NCBI GenBank assembly: GCA_018057765.1
Contig: JAGPDB010000016.1
Location: forward strand, 1-44,757
Reading direction: 5' to 3'
DNA length: 44,757 bases
DNA from: Acidimicrobiia bacterium
GTDB lineage: Bacteria; Actinomycetota; Acidimicrobiia; IMCC26256; JAGPDB01
Numbering within the stretch: position 1 is the stretch's first letter; every line of letters starts with the position of its first letter. The translations under genes were made by a program, and so were the position numbers. The notes under the pieces were generated by a model that ran no database searches, had not been told where the DNA came from, and saw only the letters and a list, made by a program, of their open reading frames with translations. This document shows, in pieces, positions 1 through 44,757 of this stretch.

Positions 1-1008
1 GATATTGGACAATATCCTTTATTGTCAAAAGAAGACGAAGTAAAACTAGCAAAATCAATTGAAGAAGGCGCCCAAGCTCGTGGCATGTTAGGAGAACGCA
101 AACGTCTTGCAGACTTGATTGAAGAAGAAGAAGCAGAAGAAGACGGTGAAGATGGCCAAGCACCAAAATTAAGTGCTGCTGCTAAAGCAAAGATCATGGC
201 TAAAAAAGAAGCACAGGAAGCAAAAATTGTTACTGTTTCTCCAGCTGAAAAACGCAGACTACGCAGAGTGATAAGAACAGCTGATGCTGCAGAAATGAAA
301 TTCGTACAATGCAACTTGCGTCTTGTTGTTTCTATTGCTAAAAAATATCAAGCATCAGGATTACCATTACTTGACCTTATTCAAGAAGGCAACCTAGGTC
401 TTATGCACGCAGTTGAAAAATTCGACTGGCGTAAAGGTTTCAAATTCTCAACATATGCAACATGGTGGATCCGTCAAGCGATCACACGTGGTATTGCTAA
501 TACAGGACGCACAATCCGGCTCCCAGTTCACGCTGGTGATACATTAGCCCGTCTACAAAAAGCACGCTCACGTTTAGAACTTAAGTATGGTCGTCCAGCA
601 ACTATTAAAGAACTTTCAATTGAAGTGGAAATGCCTGAAGATAAAGTTACTGAAGCATTACGTTTCGCAGCTGAACCACTTTCATTAAGTGAACCACTTC
701 GTGAAGATGGCGACGCAGAATTGGGCGATATTGTTCAAGACCGTGGTGCTGAATCACCATTCGAAACAGCTGCAACTGCTTTATTGCCAGACGAAATAGC
801 AGTTTTACTTTCACCTCTTGACGAGCGTGAACGTGAAATTTTGAAATTGCGTTTTGGTCTAGATCGTGGAGAAGCACGTACGCTTGAAGAAGTTGGAGAA
901 CACTTCAACCTTACTCGTGAACGTATTCGTCAAATCGAAGCACGCGCAATGAGCAAACTTCGTCACCCATCAGCTGATACTGGTGCTCGCGACTTACTTG
1001 CTGTTTAA
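1..1008 (+). CDS. Primary-type (RpoD/SigA family) RNA polymerase sigma factor, 5' truncated by window edge
   Basis: The reading frame is open from base 1. The first residues (DIGQYPLLSKEDEVKLAKSI) already lie in sigma region 1.2, so the true start is upstream, and the TTG at 22 is only an internal codon. Region 2 (about residues 105-168, counting from the window edge) contains NLRLVVSIAKKYQ, DLIQEGNLGLMHAVEKFD and FSTYATWWIRQAITR, the core-binding and -10 recognition helices. Region 3 follows (IRLPVH), then region 4 with the -35 helix-turn-helix LTRERIRQIEARAMSKLRHP. The family is certain; housekeeping SigA/HrdB versus a group 2 paralogue cannot be decided without the N-terminus. Between regions 1.2 and 2 there is an acidic then lysine-rich insert (about residues 38-82), longer than in a minimal SigA. 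Confidence 0.93.
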   Translation, partial: DIGQYPLLSKEDEVKLAKSIEEGAQARGMLGERKRLADLIEEEEAEEDGEDGQAPKLSAAAKAKIMAKKEAQEAKIVTVSPAEKRRLRRVIRTADAAEMKFVQCNLRLVVSIAKKYQASGLPLLDLIQEGNLGLMHAVEKFDWRKGFKFSTYATWWIRQAITRGIANTGRTIRLPVHAGDTLARLQKARSRLELKYGRPATIKELSIEVEMPEDKVTEALRFAAEPLSLSEPLREDGDAELGDIVQDRGAESPFETAATALLPDEIAVLLSPLDEREREILKLRFGLDRGEARTLEEVGEHFNLTRERIRQIEARAMSKLRHPSADTGARDLLAV

Positions 1009-3535: not shown

Positions 3536-3636
3536 TAGTTTTGTTGGTTACTAAATGTCTAGTAGATCAATTATCCTTCCCTTTAAATAAGCGTATATGC
3601 ATCTCTTGCTACGTTACTGATATAAAGGGTTATACG

Positions 3637-4647
3637 ATGCTCATTACAGTTTTTTCACCAAAAGGTGGTTCAGGTACTTCAACATGTGCGGCCTTGTTAG
3701 CGAAAAGTTGCTCTATGATACTAGCTAAGCAAACAGTTCTTATAGATGCAGCAAATGGTGATATTGAGACCATTGTTGGATTCAATTCAGAATCTAAATA
3801 TGGCTTCATTCAGTGGCTAGAATCTGCAACACCGACATCACATAGTCTAGAAAAGATCTCAAATTTTATTGAAGATAATTTTTCATATGTAAGTTACAGT
3901 TCAATAAAAGAGAATTGTTACATAGATAAATGTGTGCAAAGCGATGGAAATAATAAGTTTAAAATCCAAGAAATCATTTCCACTTTATCAACAAGTGAAT
4001 CTAATTATATTATTGATATTGGAACCAATATTAATGAGCTCAATAATGCACTAATAGAAAGTTCTGATTTTGTATTTATGGTGCTTAGAGGATGCTATAT
4101 CACACTTAGCAGGGCAACAAAGCACCCATACTTAGAGCAAAGTGATGTCGCTATTTATATTGCAGAATCTGGCCGATCAATAACAGCCAAACAAATGGGT
4201 ACTGTGTTAAAACTCAAATGTATTATAGAGATAGAAGCCAGAAGAGATTTTGCAAAAGTTATCGATGCGGGTGTTTTGCTTTTTAGAACACCAAAATACA
4301 TGATAAGTGCAATTGATAAATTTATGCACGACGTTAATAAATATTTTGAAACAATGTTGACAAATTTTAATGATCAAAATGTAAGCAAAGCAAAAAATAA
4401 AAACTATAACAGGATTCAAAGCTTATCAAACGATACATTCGATATTTTTAATGATGCAGAAGAACATAATAATCGAAATTTCTGGGATGTCCTAGAAACC
4501 GAATCTCGAAATAGAGATGGGGTCGATATAATTAGCGAAAAATCTCTAAACACAAAAAATAAGATTCAAACTAGAGCAATAAATGATTCTTACACTTCTC
4601 ACTTACACGACGTATTTGATGGTATTAAAGACAAAGGAAGGAGTTGA
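3637..4647 (+). CDS. Ssd/TadZ/CpaE-like Tad-system MinD-family protein
   Basis: I start at the ATG at 3637 (336 aa) because the MinD-type fold begins at once (MLITVFSPKGGSGTSTCAAL) and AAAGGG sits 7 bases before it; a longer frame from a TTG at 3541 adds only 32 unstructured residues. The deviant Walker A is degenerate: KGGSGT keeps the signature first lysine but has Thr where the nucleotide-binding Lys of MinD stands, as usual in CpaE/TadZ and mycobacterial Ssd proteins. The C-terminal about 80 residues are polar and probably disordered. These proteins are thought to localise the Tad machine, and Rv3660c (Ssd) also affects septum placement. First gene of the operon; its stop overlaps the tadA start by one base. 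Confidence 0.82.
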   Translation: MLITVFSPKGGSGTSTCAALLAKSCSMILAKQTVLIDAANGDIETIVGFNSESKYGFIQWLESATPTSHSLEKISNFIEDNFSYVSYSSIKENCYIDKCVQSDGNNKFKIQEIISTLSTSESNYIIDIGTNINELNNALIESSDFVFMVLRGCYITLSRATKHPYLEQSDVAIYIAESGRSITAKQMGTVLKLKCIIEIEARRDFAKVIDAGVLLFRTPKYMISAIDKFMHDVNKYFETMLTNFNDQNVSKAKNKNYNRIQSLSNDTFDIFNDAEEHNNRNFWDVLETESRNRDGVDIISEKSLNTKNKIQTRAINDSYTSHLHDVFDGIKDKGRS

Positions 4648-5768
4648 TGTCAAATTTAATTTCGGATGCTAAGAAAACATTACATGAAAGGGTTGTATCT
4701 CGAGTGCAAAATCATCAAAATGATCTTGATGGTCAAATGTCAATACGAGATATTGTAAAATCCGAAATTGATTTAGGATTCCCACTACTAGATAAGAAAG
4801 CTAGCGAACTGCTATACGAATCAATGATGAGTGATGTTAGTGGCTATGGATTATTAGACATATACATTGGAGATGAAACGATTAACGAAATAATGATTAA
4901 TTCACCAACAAAAATGTTCATAGACAGAAAAGGAAAAATTGATGAAGTAGCTATTGAAACAACGAGTGACGAATTAATTCGAATAATTCAAAAAATAGCG
5001 GCTGGTGTGGGTGCCAGATTTGATACAGCATCACCAATTGTAGATGCATGGCTTGATAATGGCTCGCGATTCCATGGTGTGATGGCACCTATTGCAGCCG
5101 ATGGCCCATACTTAACAATAAGAAAATTTATAGAACAATCATTAGACCTAGATCAATTTTATCCAACTAGAATTCAAAAAGAAATACTTATAGATGCAAT
5201 AAAAAAATCTAAAAATATTGTAGTTGCCGGTGGCACTAGTAGTGGAAAGACCACATTATTAAATACTCTTATACATTTAATACCTTCAAGTGAGCGTATA
5301 GTTTCAATAGAGGAGACAGCTGAACTTGCTACATCACACGAACATTTTGTTCGTCTAATAGCTCGAACTTCTAATAGTGAAGGAGTAGGTACTATAACAA
5401 TGGGTGATTTAGTTAAAGCAAGTATGCGAATGAGACCAGATAGAATTATTGTCGGTGAAGTACGTTCTGGTGAAGCCTTAGATCTATTACAAGCACTAAA
5501 TACTGGCCATGATGGATCATTATGTAGTGTGCATGCAAATGGACCCAATGAGGTAATACAACGTATTGCGACTCTTGCCTTATTTTCAGGTGCTCAAATT
5601 CCATTCGAAGCATTAGTCACACAAGTATATTTTGGTGTTGATTTAATAGTTTATGTAAAACGTTTAAATAATGGAAATAGGATAATCGAATCAATCAGTC
5701 AAATTAATCGCGATAATGGTAAAAGAGAAATAATTCAAATTGATATAGAGAAAACAAATGTTGGTTAA
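4647..5768 (+). CDS. tadA: TadA/CpaF-type secretion ATPase
   Basis: The 373-residue product is a type II/IV secretion ATPase of the CpaF branch, powering assembly of Tad (Flp) pili from the cytoplasmic face. The Walker A is VVAGGTSSGKTTLLN; the Asp box/Walker B area reads SIEETAEL and MRPDRIIVGEVRSGEALDLL; a conserved SVHANG stretch follows. The N-terminal part holds the usual MINSPTKMFIDRKGKI domain. I prefer the ATG at 4647 over a TTG at 4644 because the strong AAGGAAGGAG (4634-4643) ends only a few bases upstream and the TGATG junction couples it to the Ssd-like gene. It overlaps tadB by 11 bases. Length is close to the Rv3659c type. Confidence 0.95.
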   Translation: MSNLISDAKKTLHERVVSRVQNHQNDLDGQMSIRDIVKSEIDLGFPLLDKKASELLYESMMSDVSGYGLLDIYIGDETINEIMINSPTKMFIDRKGKIDEVAIETTSDELIRIIQKIAAGVGARFDTASPIVDAWLDNGSRFHGVMAPIAADGPYLTIRKFIEQSLDLDQFYPTRIQKEILIDAIKKSKNIVVAGGTSSGKTTLLNTLIHLIPSSERIVSIEETAELATSHEHFVRLIARTSNSEGVGTITMGDLVKASMRMRPDRIIVGEVRSGEALDLLQALNTGHDGSLCSVHANGPNEVIQRIATLALFSGAQIPFEALVTQVYFGVDLIVYVKRLNNGNRIIESISQINRDNGKREIIQIDIEKTNVG

Positions 5769-6630
5769 TACTATAAATTTATTACTCTCGTTGATATTGT
5801 TATTTTCACTTATATTTTTCTTAATGAATTTAGATAATAAAAAAGTTAGAAAATTAAAAAGTTCTAACAATGTCCTTTGGAAAAATATTTTCGTCAAAGT
5901 AAAAGCCGCTGGCTTCGAATATGAAGATCCAAAAATTCGACAACTTGTGCTTTACTATATCGTTGTAGCTGGCATGATTGGATTTAGCATTAATCCTTTG
6001 GGTGTATTTATTTCCCCAGTGTTCGCAATCATAGGGTTATATGCATATTTATTATATAAGGAACGATTATTATCTATTTCGTTACAACAAATTAATGATG
6101 AGCTTTGTTACTCAATTGCACGAAGACTTAGAAGCGGGGAATCATTGATTGATGCTTTAAAAAATGTTCAAAAACAATATAAAAAAATTAAATTAGTACG
6201 ATATATAAATAAATATATAGATAATGGCTATTCTGTAGAACTTGCTATAGAAAAAACAATCACAAATAATACAATCATTAAGAATGAATCAGAAAAAATG
6301 TTATGTGGCACAATAGTTCTAGCTCATCAAATGGGAGGAAATTCTGCAAGAATATTTGAAAGAATCGGTGACTGTTTTCACCACACATACGAACTTCTAG
6401 GTGATACCAAATCAACAATAGCCCAAGTGAAAATGTCAGCAATGGTGATAAGTATTTTACCAATAGGATTTTTAGGACTTTCTACAATAATGGGTTTAGG
6501 TGGTAGTACTTTTCTATTTGATAACCCATTAGGAATCATGTGTCTAATAACAGGTATCGGCATGGAAGTAATAGGAATAATGTGGATGAGAAGGATGATA
6601 AGAAAAGGTATAGGGATATGGATATCATAG
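5758..6630 (+). CDS. tadB: TadB-type inner-membrane platform protein (T2SSF)
   Basis: The 290-residue membrane protein starts at an ATG inside the end of tadA. It has an N-terminal hydrophobic segment, a hydrophobic pair around residues 60-105, a cytoplasmic T2SSF region (LQQINDELCYSIARRLRSGE, then a MGGNSARIFERIGD stretch), and two or more C-terminal membrane segments. Together with TadC it would form the platform on which TadA acts. Identity rests on topology, the T2SSF-like motifs and position. It overlaps tadC by 13 bases. Confidence 0.87.
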   Translation: MLVNTINLLLSLILLFSLIFFLMNLDNKKVRKLKSSNNVLWKNIFVKVKAAGFEYEDPKIRQLVLYYIVVAGMIGFSINPLGVFISPVFAIIGLYAYLLYKERLLSISLQQINDELCYSIARRLRSGESLIDALKNVQKQYKKIKLVRYINKYIDNGYSVELAIEKTITNNTIIKNESEKMLCGTIVLAHQMGGNSARIFERIGDCFHHTYELLGDTKSTIAQVKMSAMVISILPIGFLGLSTIMGLGGSTFLFDNPLGIMCLITGIGMEVIGIMWMRRMIRKGIGIWIS

Positions 6631-7142
6631 AAAAACAAAAAACAATTTTAAAAGATTTAAAATTACGAGCAAAAGTAGAAAAAGAAAATAAATTAAAAAG
6701 ACAAATATTAATTAGAGACCTTCCAATGGTTTATGGTCTATTTAGTGTAGGAATTTCATCGGGGATGCCAATATTAAACGTGATGTGCAAAATTGCTCGA
6801 TATTGTCCTGAGTCATGTAAAGAAGATATTAATAATGTAATAAAAGAAATAGATGCCGGTAGATCATTACAAAATTCTTTGATTAACTTAGAAAACAATC
6901 CGCAATTTAGAATTTTTGCACATGTGATTTCTGAATCATGTGATTGTGGAACAGATGTATTACCCACGTTAGATTCACTTCACAAAGATTCAATGAACAA
7001 GATCAGACGTGAAGCAGAATCTGCGATAAAAAAACTACCTATTTCAATGTTATTTCCCTTGGTTATATGTATATTACCCGCATTCATGCTGTTAAGTGTG
7101 ATTCCTACATTGGCTAATGGAATATTCAATATTGGAATTTAA
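6618..7142 (+). CDS. tadC: TadC-type inner-membrane platform protein, short form
   Basis: The chosen ATG at 6618 (174 aa) follows AAAAGGTATAGGG and begins MDIIEKQKTILKDLK; an open frame extends back to 6540 but would overlap tadB by 91 bases. The product has a charged N-terminal helix, a T2SSF-like core (LPMVYGLFSVGISSGMPIL, DAGRSLQNSLINLE, SESCDCGTDVLPTLDSL) and a final membrane hairpin (LFPLVICILPAFMLLSVIP). It is much shorter than proteobacterial TadC (about 300 aa) but similar to mycobacterial Rv3657c. It is the second platform subunit of the Tad machine. Confidence 0.82.
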   Translation: MDIIEKQKTILKDLKLRAKVEKENKLKRQILIRDLPMVYGLFSVGISSGMPILNVMCKIARYCPESCKEDINNVIKEIDAGRSLQNSLINLENNPQFRIFAHVISESCDCGTDVLPTLDSLHKDSMNKIRREAESAIKKLPISMLFPLVICILPAFMLLSVIPTLANGIFNIGI

Positions 7143-40446: not shown

Positions 40447-41484
40447 TCAATAAAGTGTAACAACTGCGAGGTCAGCACCCGAATGAGCTTGCTCAAAAAG
40501 TTCTATAGGCACTATACCTCTAGGTCTGTTGGCTGCAATATTTCTTGTGGTCTGATCATTCAAAATATCAGTATCAACTTTTACTCCATCGGTACATAAA
40601 ACAACAGCTTCAAATCCGGAAACATGTGGTCCAGTTTGTTCAGTATTTGTAAGGGAGACGAGTTTGAATCCATCTGAAGATAATTCTTCATTTGTATAAC
40701 GTCCAAGCGGTGGTGATACATATGAATCTCGATTAGCAGTTATTTGTTCTTCGCGTGGAATTAACATTGCTTCTGTAATTCTTTTTTTAATAAGACCTAG
40801 TTTTGTATAGTTGTTTTTTCCTGCAAGTATGTCGTAGAGTCCATTAAGAATCGGAAATTCATTTACATTATTTCTCACTAAATCGTTTACAAATTCGTCT
40901 AGTGAATCATTTTTAAAGGCTTCGTCAGCGCCATCCCAAAAGACTCGAACTTCTTCTAATAAAATATTAAATTCTTTTTGAGCCTCGATCGACAGCATCT
41001 GTTTCCCATGTAACATTTCCCACCCATTAGGCTTGAGCACATAAATTTCGCTGTCGCCTGATGCATAAAATTCACCGACTAATTCGAATTGGTCACAGTT
41101 TGGATCTACATAAATATCCCCAATTACAAGCATTGATTGTGGGCTAAAAGTTTTCCAGTCAAAGTTATGAAGTCTATTGTTTACTCGCAATAACGCCTCT
41201 GGAATATTTGCGCTTTGTACTAATCCATTTTTTGTGACAGCAGAGGCAAATGTAGCTAAATCGTAAGGAGCGAGACTACTATCTCGTGGCGTAACTCCAT
41301 CAATTGCTATCAAGCGTCTTAAAGGTATATTTTCAGTGAGTTTTCTTGGTGCATTTGGGATTTTGACTGAGGCTAATTCATCTGCCATAGAAGCTCTGTG
41401 GCCACTTTTTAGATGTGTACTTATAGTATATTCTTCATCCCCAATTTTAAATACTTTTGGATTTATTCTTTTGCTTGTCGGCAT
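40447..41484 (-). CDS. Divergent PP2C-like (PPM-family) phosphatase
   Basis: I did not recognise this 345-residue protein at first; its motif order then fits a divergent PPM phosphatase. SGHRASMADELASV (Asp35) stands for the first motif, LRRLIAIDGV (Asp62-Gly63) for the DG metal motif, FYASGDSEIYVLKPNG (Gly143-Asp144-Ser145) for GDSR-Y, AVVLCTDGVKV (Asp299-Gly300) for the SDG motif, and the C-terminal GADLAVVTLY (Asp338) for the final DDxTVVxV, in which the first Asp is Ala. It is soluble and has an extra helical stretch (about residues 165-245). Metal-binding Asp residues are mostly kept, so activity is possible. It is upstream of, and likely co-transcribed with, the polyprenyl synthase; no Ser/Thr kinase lies in the window. 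Confidence 0.58.
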   Translation of the reverse strand: MPTSKRINPKVFKIGDEEYTISTHLKSGHRASMADELASVKIPNAPRKLTENIPLRRLIAIDGVTPRDSSLAPYDLATFASAVTKNGLVQSANIPEALLRVNNRLHNFDWKTFSPQSMLVIGDIYVDPNCDQFELVGEFYASGDSEIYVLKPNGWEMLHGKQMLSIEAQKEFNILLEEVRVFWDGADEAFKNDSLDEFVNDLVRNNVNEFPILNGLYDILAGKNNYTKLGLIKKRITEAMLIPREEQITANRDSYVSPPLGRYTNEELSSDGFKLVSLTNTEQTGPHVSGFEAVVLCTDGVKVDTDILNDQTTRNIAANRPRGIVPIELFEQAHSGADLAVVTLY

Positions 41485-41716: not shown

Positions 41717-44374
41717 GTGTTTGAGCGTTTTACAGATAGAGCCCGTCGTGTTGTTGTGCTGGCACAAGAGGAAGCCAGACTATTAAACCATAATTATATT
41801 GGGACAGAACATATTTTATTAGGACTAATTCATGAGGGTGAAGGTGTCGCTGCGAAAGCTCTAGAGTCATTAGGCATATCTTTAGACGCTGTGCGTGGTC
41901 AAGTAGAAGAAATTATTGGTCAAGGTGGATCAGCTCCTAGCGGTCACATACCTTTTACGCCTAGAGCCAAAAAAGTACTCGAACTATCACTGCGTGAAGC
42001 ACTTCAATTAGGACATAATTATATTGGTACAGAGCATATTTTGCTCGGATTAATCCGTGAAGGCGAAGGTGTGGCTGCTCAAGTTCTTGTAAAGCTTGGT
42101 GCTGATCTCTCAAGGGTTAGACAACAGGTTATTCAATTGCTCAGTGGCTATGGCCAAGGTGGTGGAGCACAAGCTGGTCGTGAACCGGGTGCTGGAGCTA
42201 CTAGTCGTGGTGAAGAGCAAGGTGGAACTGCTGCTGGTTCACAAGTGCTTGATCAGTTTGGTAGAAATCTAACCCAACTCGCGCGTGAAAAACAATTGGA
42301 CCCTGTTATTGGTAGAGCTAAAGAGATCGAACGCATTATGCAAGTTTTATCTCGACGTACAAAAAATAATCCAGTATTAGTTGGTGAACCTGGTGTTGGT
42401 AAGACAGCCGTTGTTGAAGGTCTGGCACAACAAATTGTTGCTGGTGATGTTCCAGAAACATTGGAAGGTAAACAACTTTATACTCTTGATCTTGGTGCTT
42501 TGGTTGCAGGTTCGCGATATCGTGGTGACTTTGAAGAACGTTTGAAAAAAGTTCTAAAAGAAATTAAAACTCGTGGTGACATAATTTTATTTATCGATGA
42601 GATGCATACTCTTGTAGGAGCTGGTGCTGCAGAAGGAGCTATTGATGCTGCTTCTATATTAAAGCCAATGCTAGCACGTGGTGAATTACAAACAATTGGT
42701 GCTACAACTCTTGATGAATATAGAAAACATATTGAAAAAGATCCTGCATTAGAGAGACGTTTTCAGCCTGTAAAAGTTGAAGAACCTTCAGTTGGTGAAA
42801 CAATAGAAATCCTTAAAGGTCTACGCGACCGTTATGAAACTCACCATAAGGTAACAATTACCGACCAAGCTGTTGTTGCTGCTGCAAACTTGGCGGATCG
42901 TTACATTTCTGATCGCTTCTTGCCAGATAAGGCTATTGACTTAATTGATGAAGCTGGTTCTCGTATGCGTATCCATAGAATGCAAACTCCTGGTGATTAT
43001 AAAGAGCTTGAAGATGAAATTGCGAAAATTCGTACGGAAAAAGAACAAGCAATTGAAGGTCAACAATTTGAACGTGCAGCCCAAATGCGCGACAAAGAAA
43101 AAGAATTACTTGCTTCTAAAAAAGAAAAAGAAGTCAAATGGAAAGAAGAAGGGGTCGATCTTTTCAATGAAGTAACTGAAGAATCTATCGCAGAGGTTCT
43201 TGCAATGTGGACTGGTATTCCTGTCTATAAATTGACAGAAGAAGAAACAGCGAAACTACTTCGTATGGAAGATGAGCTTCATCACAGAATTATTGGTCAA
43301 TATGCAGCTGTAGAAGCCGTCTCTAAAGCAATGCGTCGTACGCGTGCAGGTATAAAAGATCCTAAACGTCCTAGCGCTTCATTTATTTTCTTAGGTCCTT
43401 CTGGTGTTGGTAAAACTGAATTAGCTAAAACTTTGGCTGAATTTTTATTCGGTGATGAAAATGCACTGATCACTCTAGATATGTCTGAGTATATGGATTC
43501 ACATACTGTTTCTCGTTTATTCGGTTCGCCTCCTGGTTTCGTAGGATACGATGAAGGTGGACAATTGACTGAAGCTGTAAGACGTAAACCATTTAGTGTT
43601 GTATTGCTCGATGAAATTGAAAAAGCTCACCCACAGGTATTTAATACTTTCTTGCAGGTTCTAGAAGATGGTCATTTAACAGATGCTCAAGGTCGTAAAG
43701 TTGACTTTAAAAATACTGTCATCATTATGACTTCTAACTTGGGTACTGCAGACTTGCGTAAATCCAATGTAGGTTTCGGTGGTGGTGATGCTAACTATTC
43801 TTACGAGAAAATGAAGGATAAGGCTATGGATGCACTGAAAGGCCATTTCCGTCCTGAATTCCTTAACCGTGTCGATGAAGTTATTGTATTTGCTGAGCTT
43901 TCTAAAGATGAAGTTATACAAATTGTTGACTTGTTCTTAGACCGTCTTCGTGTGCAACTACTTTCTCAAGGTCTAGGCTTAGAGTTAACTCAAGAAGCTA
44001 AACTTTATGTTGCGGAAAAAGGTTATGATCCTACTATGGGTGCACGTCCGTTACGTCGTGAAATTCAAAAACTTGTAGAAAATCCTATGTCAGAAATGAT
44101 TCTTAAAAAGGATTTTCATGCTGGAGAAACGATTCTTGTTGATGTGACAGACAAGCTTGGTGAAGATGGAAATGTTATTGTTGGTGAAAAAACGATTACG
44201 TTTAAATCCATGCCAACTATAACGACTGAAGAAGCACCTTCTTTAAAAGCACATGAAGAAGACATAGAAACACAAAGCCCAAAAGCTAGTAGCGGTATTT
44301 CTAAAGCTGCAGGAACTAAAAAACCTAAAGCCGGTGGAACAGGTACTGCGACCACTGATCCAATAACTGAGTAA
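41717..44374 (+). CDS. clpC: ATP-dependent Clp protease ATP-binding subunit ClpC
   Basis: The 885-residue Hsp100 unfoldase feeds substrates to ClpP. Two N-terminal Clp repeats (about residues 1-145, each with [16 protein letters not shown]-like text) are followed by a Gly-rich linker, AAA-1 (Walker [32 protein letters not shown]), a UVR/M-type coiled segment ([20 protein letters not shown]) that identifies ClpC rather than ClpA, AAA-2 (Walker [47 protein letters not shown]) and the C-terminal D2 small domain. The tail (about 50 residues, [18 protein letters not shown] on) is low complexity. Start is GTG at 41717, 6 bases after AAGGTAAGGA. The stop codon lies inside a 26-bp tandem duplication. 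Confidence 0.97.
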
Positions 44375-44411
44375 TTCGTAAAGGTCCAATATCTGAGTAA
44401 TTCGTAAAGGA
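44360..44411 (+). repeat. 26-bp tandem duplication spanning the clpC stop codon
   Basis: Units 44360-44385 and 44386-44411 (each CCAATA-A/T-CTGAGTAATTC then GTAAAGG) differ at two of 26 positions. The first copy holds the clpC C-terminal codons and its TAA; the second repeats them out of use and supplies GTAAAGGA as the ribosome-binding site of the following gene. Confidence 0.9.
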
Positions 44412-44418
44412 TTGATAT

Positions 44419-44757
44419 TTGCTGAAGAAAAGACGTTATCCAAGTCTTAGAACTAACCTCATTTATAATCTGGTTCTTCTTCCAGTGCTCGTGTTATTGT
44501 TTTTGCTTGTACGATCTGAACCAGATAGCGGTGCAATATACGTATTATTTTTAATAGTTATTTTTCTTTTGATTCCTATTGAGTACTTTTCGAGTACGTA
44601 TATAGATTTCGAAAAAAATCGAGTTTTTGTCAGATGTCGGTGCTGGAACATCGCCAACAATAAGTGTTGTTGGAACAGACACAGCAGGTACAATCACTCT
44701 TACAACTGGTGGCACGCCAAGCGTATCAGCAGATGTGTTAACACTGACATTTGCAAA
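44419..44757 (+). CDS. Small membrane protein (bacterial PH-like?), 3' end lost or chimeric
   Basis: A TTG at 44419 lies 7 bases after AAAGGA and opens a frame that runs off the window. Residues 1-72 look genuine: a basic start (MLKKRRYPSLRTN), two membrane helices (LIYNLVLLPVLVLLFLLV and AIYVLFLIVIFLLIPIEYF), then SSTYIDFEKNRVFVR, reminiscent of bacterial PH-domain membrane proteins. From about 44627 onward the same frame becomes Cys/Trp/His-rich text (CRCWNIANNKCCW) that is not protein-like, while a different frame becomes strongly protein-like (see next feature). The gene is probably broken or the sequence is a misjoin near 44620-44635. Confidence 0.55.
   Translation, partial: MLKKRRYPSLRTNLIYNLVLLPVLVLLFLLVRSEPDSGAIYVLFLIVIFLLIPIEYFSSTYIDFEKNRVFVRCRCWNIANNKCCWNRHSRYNHSYNWWHAKRISRCVNTDICK
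44606..44757 (+). other. Phage/virion structural-protein-like fragment in a different frame, truncated by window edge
   Basis: The frame opens after a TAG at 44603-44605; from 44627 it reads LSDVGAGTSPTISVVGTDTA and then GTITLTTGGTPSVSADVLTL. This Gly/Thr/Ser-rich text resembles, from memory, repeats in marine phage tail or structural proteins (VGTGTSPTxSVxGTDxAGTITxTTGTSPS). The stretch is also richer in G+C than its surroundings. It has no start codon with a ribosome site and no 3' end here. Foreign sequence joined to the end of the contig or a true insertion are both possible. Confidence 0.55.

Follow-up and report, generated by a model that had tools for sequence, protein, structure and literature searches.

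Does the abrupt change of coding frame at the end of a contig mark captured DNA, the edge of a prophage or a fault of assembly? The question is raised by the genome of an Acidimicrobiia bacterium, in which a frame for a plausible membrane protein, located just after clpC, gives way to text that reads like the tip of a fibre. The window analysed here is the entire contig C16 (44,757 nucleotides), one of the 51 contigs of a 1.76 Mb genome, and the end of the window is the end of the contig. A first-pass annotation made from the letters alone had seen the change and had proposed a chimeric join, a prophage or a gene-capture boundary to account for it.

Two reading frames at the end of the window

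The membrane frame, open from 44419, reads ...DFEKNRVFVR and then, by eye, loses its protein character near 44630. A second frame, which opens at 44606, gives ISKKIEF-LSDVGAGTSPTISVVGTDTAG, with text that is clearly tip-like (again by eye) from GAGTSP onward. The T-rich stretch GAGTTTTTG, which the first-pass annotation had put forward as a possible microhomology of a misjoin, lies at 44621–44629; a further sequence that could have been its partner was not found. On the membrane side, the last clear identities to a 141-aa membrane protein of a genome of the same genus (G001) are V71–R72, at about 44634. The alignments of the tip begin at position 3 of the neighbouring contig C15 because the query begins there, i.e., the position of the junction is not set by them. 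It was bracketed (Table 1), and the start of the overlap with C15, 44631, falls inside this bracket of about 30 bases, a coincidence that is approximate. Around 44630 the contig is unbranched, a point in favour of the fusion as the main path. Inverted or direct repeats of at least 10 bp able to drive site-specific switching were absent from 44380–44757, no second copy of the junction was found in the genome with a 28-base pattern allowing up to three mismatches, and there was no tRNA at the junction.

Table 1. Coordinates of the features at the clpC end of the window and of their continuation on C15
Feature	Position	Strand	Evidence
clpC (885 aa), left anchor of the clpC–radA interval	41717–44374	+	ORF; ClpC 88% identical in G001 and G002
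26-bp tandem duplication, two copies, over the clpC stop codon	44359–44410	+	Tandem Repeats Finder, 96% matches
Small membrane-protein gene, 5′ part, ~71 codons, TTG start, cut off	44419–44630	+	ORF
Junction bracket; the membrane gene and the fibre tip are in different frames	44609–44639	+	Missing GxxP; last membrane-side identities
Terminal overlap with the start of C15 (assembly k-mer)	44631–44757	+	127 bases, 100% identity to C15:1–127
Fibre-tip domain, C-terminal, first 41 codons	44633–44755, on to C15:302, stop 303–305	+	Translation; homologues

The frame change, the letters and the coordinates were thus as the first-pass annotation had described them, and the discontinuity is real and beyond chance in composition and codon usage. 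The GC content of the tip (C15:1–305) is 45.6%, versus a mean of 35.7% (sd 4.0) for 1,278 windows of 305 bp taken from C16 and from C15:306–20000, 1.2% of which equalled or exceeded the tip. Its codon usage scored below all 201 host windows of 100 codons, and equally atypical usage arose in 2 of 2,000 simulations that kept its amino acids unchanged. The codon scores were −1.25 for the tip, −1.20 for the membrane part and −0.98 for the host mean; since the membrane part also scores low, the low score is not special to the tip.

The architecture of the tip was followed by comparison with its relatives. A GxxP motif is present in all six of the relatives printed (of ten compared), preceded by GH in five of them, and lies 7–14 residues upstream of an aGT-like motif; the window copy reads ISKKIEF at that place. 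In the relatives the domain ends with the protein. C15 begins inside the tip, and on C16 the tip does not form the C-terminal end of a longer, shaft-like protein: the frame open from 44606 supplies seven codons before LSDVGAG, with neither a shaft nor a signal sequence in them, and its only start codon on C16 is a TTG at 44627. The membrane part ends at about codon 71, versus 141 residues in the weakly alike G001 protein. Judged from these features of the sequence, i.e., the missing GxxP, the lack of shaft and signal, the sole TTG start and the cut membrane part, the direct fusion of membrane gene and tip is probably not a working gene. The similarity of the membrane fragment to the G001 protein is itself weak (12 identities in 44 residues; E 0.020, single comparison); a search of the other 60 genomes with the fragment gave nothing, and the G001 protein searched in this genome gave no match at E up to 10.

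Elsewhere in the window, the tandem duplication over the clpC stop also covers an AAAGG motif and lies just upstream of the start of the membrane gene, a 345-aa protein encoded upstream of clpC (40447–41484) had no Pfam match at E up to 0.01, and positions 3541–7142 hold, by eye, a small TadA/TadB-like gene cluster of the Flp pilus type.

The contig overlap and the clpC–radA interval

A fixed-length overlap between contig ends is the trace of de Bruijn assembly, here with k = 127. Exact dovetails of 127 bases were found between 13 pairs of contig tips, involving 26 different tips among the 102 tips of the 51 contigs, and no exact dovetail of at least 20 bases had any other length. In this count two tips of one contig read N and were uninformative, and the false dovetails there were set aside. 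Seven further pairs of tips have common stretches of at least 40 bases with an inexact dovetail. A third copy of the overlap between C16 and C15 was not found in the genome, part of whose sequence is N. A 127-base duplication of biological origin was ruled out, as the repeat is the assembly overlap, whose exact length is shared by all 13 pairs. Sets of k ending in 127 are common usage with SPAdes, according to a published account (PMC8172020). A search of the literature for k-mer overlaps at contig ends found no paper.

In eight of the twelve other joins the longest ORF runs across the overlap, as does the sigma-factor frame between C7 and C16, and in four it does not. At the join of C16 and C15 the longest ORF crosses the overlap only mechanically, as the membrane frame carried on into foreign DNA. 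The start of the window (1–1008) cuts, by eye, a sigma-factor-like gene, and the end of C7 shares 127 bases with it and carries the frame on.

C15 probably adjoins C16, because it carries the genes that come after clpC in two genomes of the same genus. On C15 the tip frame runs to its stop and is followed by an ATP-grasp-like gene (433–1917, with a Pfam match below the cut-off), an aquaporin-like gene and then radA at 4555; these genes were named by eye, and ClpC and RadA were additionally searched in the relatives. The two adjoin in both same-genus genomes. In G002, 144 bp separate clpC from the ATP-grasp-like gene, which is followed by the aquaporin-like gene and then by radA. In G001 the 141-aa membrane gene comes after clpC and before the ATP-grasp-like gene; about 5 kb of other genes then intervene before the aquaporin-like gene, beyond which the contig ends with the start of radA. 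The slot between clpC and the ATP-grasp-like gene therefore holds nothing in G002 and a membrane gene in G001. The gene after clpC in related genomes had been named by the first-pass annotation as a point of comparison; here it shows that the slot varies, with no tip in it in either relative. The further genes of G001 (contig C174, L022:4990–9815) lie on the minus strand and, to judge by eye, encode a pair of EamA-like transporters as well as Clp-N-like proteins. The presence of these extra genes suggests that the clpC–radA interval is a hypervariable region.

Host-like DNA resumes soon after the tip, with a non-coding stretch of 54 bp that begins 55 bases past the end of the tip stop (C15:305). 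This stretch (C15:361–414) aligned without gaps to the DNA upstream of the same gene in G001, with 34 of 54 bases identical (63%), a match equalled in none of 2,000 shuffles. Under a stricter scoring the match was not significant (176 of 500 shuffles), and the scoring was altered after that run to suit a long match of no more than 63% identity. G002 gave no match to the element under either scoring. Because the tip has its own stop and host-like DNA follows no more than 55 bases later, a misjoin would have had to strike a clean boundary by chance.

Relatives, distribution and fold of the tip

The threonine- and glycine-rich text at the window end had been called typical of phage structural repeats, and this was borne out in so far as it is fibre-like and foreign in composition and resembles proteins of viral contigs and of uncultured Caudovirales. 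When the translation was searched against viral proteins, matches were obtained on three IMG/VR contigs. As a single sequence the tip was found in 1 of 61 genomes, its own. The group searches were made with a three-row profile that includes a Nomurabacteria MAG, and each of the three groups searched is a sample of a larger one. The profile matched 1 of 395 genomes of the same class and 1 of 396 of the same phylum (its own genome in each case); in the phylum to which the Nomurabacteria MAG belongs it matched 25 of 379 genomes, a count that includes the MAG itself. A Rathayibacter protein is related to the tip (36% identity) and weakly matches a pectate-lyase-like profile; if Rathayibacter belongs to the same phylum, it shows that the sampled genomes miss carriers. 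No match was found in public phage and plasmid records (tblastn, E up to 0.01), exact tip DNA was not found in viral contigs with two patterns, and among the PHROGs one family was reached at E 0.099. No paper was found on tail fibres or surface proteins of Patescibacteria. As donors of the tip, a phage and a member of the Patescibacteria cannot be told apart.

The tip of the Nomurabacteria protein was modelled as an all-beta structure (mean pLDDT 70). Compared with BFVD, the model resembled two proteins of uncultured Caudovirales, one at E 5.1e-6 with 46% identity and the other at E 7.5e-6 with 40%, and it also resembled a giant-virus protein annotated as a putative tail fibre (E 5.8e-4). Nothing in the PDB was found by fold at E 0.001 or better, the best being R2 pyocin tail fibres (E 0.02 and 0.05, rmsd about 14), and a sequence-profile search of the PDB gave no match at E up to 1. 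A weak profile match links the tip to the H-type lectin family PF09458 (E 0.016, 15.8 bits, below the Pfam cut-off of 24), and there is a weak fold resemblance to the Helix pomatia agglutinin (Foldseek E 0.2, rmsd about 10).

Origin of the junction and comparison with known systems

The reading favoured here, with a rough probability of 0.47, is that a foreign fibre-like gene was captured in a variable slot, that its tip has a second upstream context, and that the fusion on C16 is either a deletion allele or a misjoin in the assembly graph. The stretch from clpC to the ATP-grasp-like gene that precedes radA would be a variable slot in the genus, and in this species it would have taken up the gene of a fibre-like surface protein with a C-terminal tip of the Patescibacteria or phage-fibre kind. 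In the assembly, C15 carries the tip, which ends in its own stop, and right after it the host ATP-grasp-like gene. The second upstream context would be the rest of the fibre gene, which was not found in the bin; such a context could explain both why the contigs broke at the tip and why the shared 127-mer starts at the junction. The out-of-frame fusion of about 71 membrane codons to the tip may be a deletion allele present in part of the population, or else a misjoin. An intact copy would probably encode a surface fibre with a carbohydrate-binding, lectin-like tip, as the weak fold resemblance hints. Several points speak against the favoured reading, among them the lack of a branch near 44630 and the approximate placing of the junction relative to the overlap start. 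The tip DNA was found in the bin on C15 and C16 only, and part of the genome is N. The homology of the membrane gene is weak, with the G001 protein unmatched in this genome, and four of the twelve other joins have a longest ORF that fails to cross the overlap. The upstream match to G001 was lost under stricter scoring and has no counterpart in G002.

It is somewhat doubtful that the locus is instead a fixed remnant, i.e., clpC, a truncated membrane gene, a bare tip and the ATP-grasp-like gene, left by an insertion and a later deletion, with both halves pseudogenes and the contig break due to an unrelated cause. C16 crosses the junction unbroken and continues into C15 through the k-mer overlap, the host genes on both flanks are in the expected order, and the tip lacks the GxxP motif and the shaft, all of which speak for such a remnant. 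It would leave unexplained, however, why the overlap starts inside the junction bracket. Assemblers normally join across unique DNA with a single continuation, and a break in such DNA would not be expected.

A plain misjoin, in which the assembly flanked tip DNA of a phage or of Patescibacteria from the same sample with host sequence on both sides, is unlikely. It would suit the foreign composition and distribution of the tip, and assemblers run with a large k can produce misassemblies, as the source cited above states (PMC8172020). It would, however, require that one syntenic slot was hit by two misjoins independently, once just past the tip stop and no more than 55 bases from an upstream element conserved in the host, and C15 is unbroken at the end of the tip. 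The earlier suggestion of a chimeric join is upheld in that the join lies at an end of the assembly graph, where a misjoin is possible, but two unrelated genomes are unlikely to have been joined, since C15 carries the genes expected after clpC. The suggestion of a gene-capture boundary fits, a foreign tip standing beside host genes in a variable slot. That the tip is the edge of an integrated phage is highly improbable: its domain resembles proteins of viral contigs and phages, but no integrase, terminase, capsid, tail or other phage gene was seen when the ORFs of C15:1–20000 (on a 45-kb contig; minimum 120 aa) and of the window (minimum 150 aa) were inspected by eye, the junction has no tRNA, and host-like sequence returns 55 bases past the tip. 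The proposal of a prophage boundary accordingly went unsupported.

If the capture took place as proposed, a suspicious contig end would be explained without a prophage, with k-mer overlap and synteny together helping to separate a real locus from an artefact. The genus would have, beside clpC, a variable slot that seems to have received foreign fibre-type DNA, and a fibre gene intact in some cells would be a candidate for what governs their contact with epibionts or phages. A bolder version is quite unlikely: a surface-fibre gene would have moved between Patescibacteria or phage and an actinobacterium-like cell into the hypervariable clpC slot, the population switching or losing it by deletion or recombination at the tip, and the tip's two upstream contexts would then represent alternative alleles of a single surface structure.

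Among known proteins, the closest likeness is to a 396-aa protein of Ca. Nomurabacteria UBA5155 (L028), to which the tip is 54–55% identical over about 95–100 residues with the same C-terminal end; unlike the Patescibacteria proteins, the copy here lacks the upstream GxxP and the shaft on C16 and sits in a genome of another phylum. The proteins of the IMG/VR contigs (L026, L027 and L122) share the C-terminal motif GTDTAG.IT..(T/S)G...LTFA with the tip, and their best segments are 44–50% identical to it, whereas no other phage gene was seen beside the copy here. The exact 127-base dovetail of C16 and C15, one of 13, is like the contig ends left by de Bruijn assembly of the SPAdes type with k = 127; compared with the other twelve, it is by eye the sole join at which two gene-like frames on the same strand meet near the start of the overlap.
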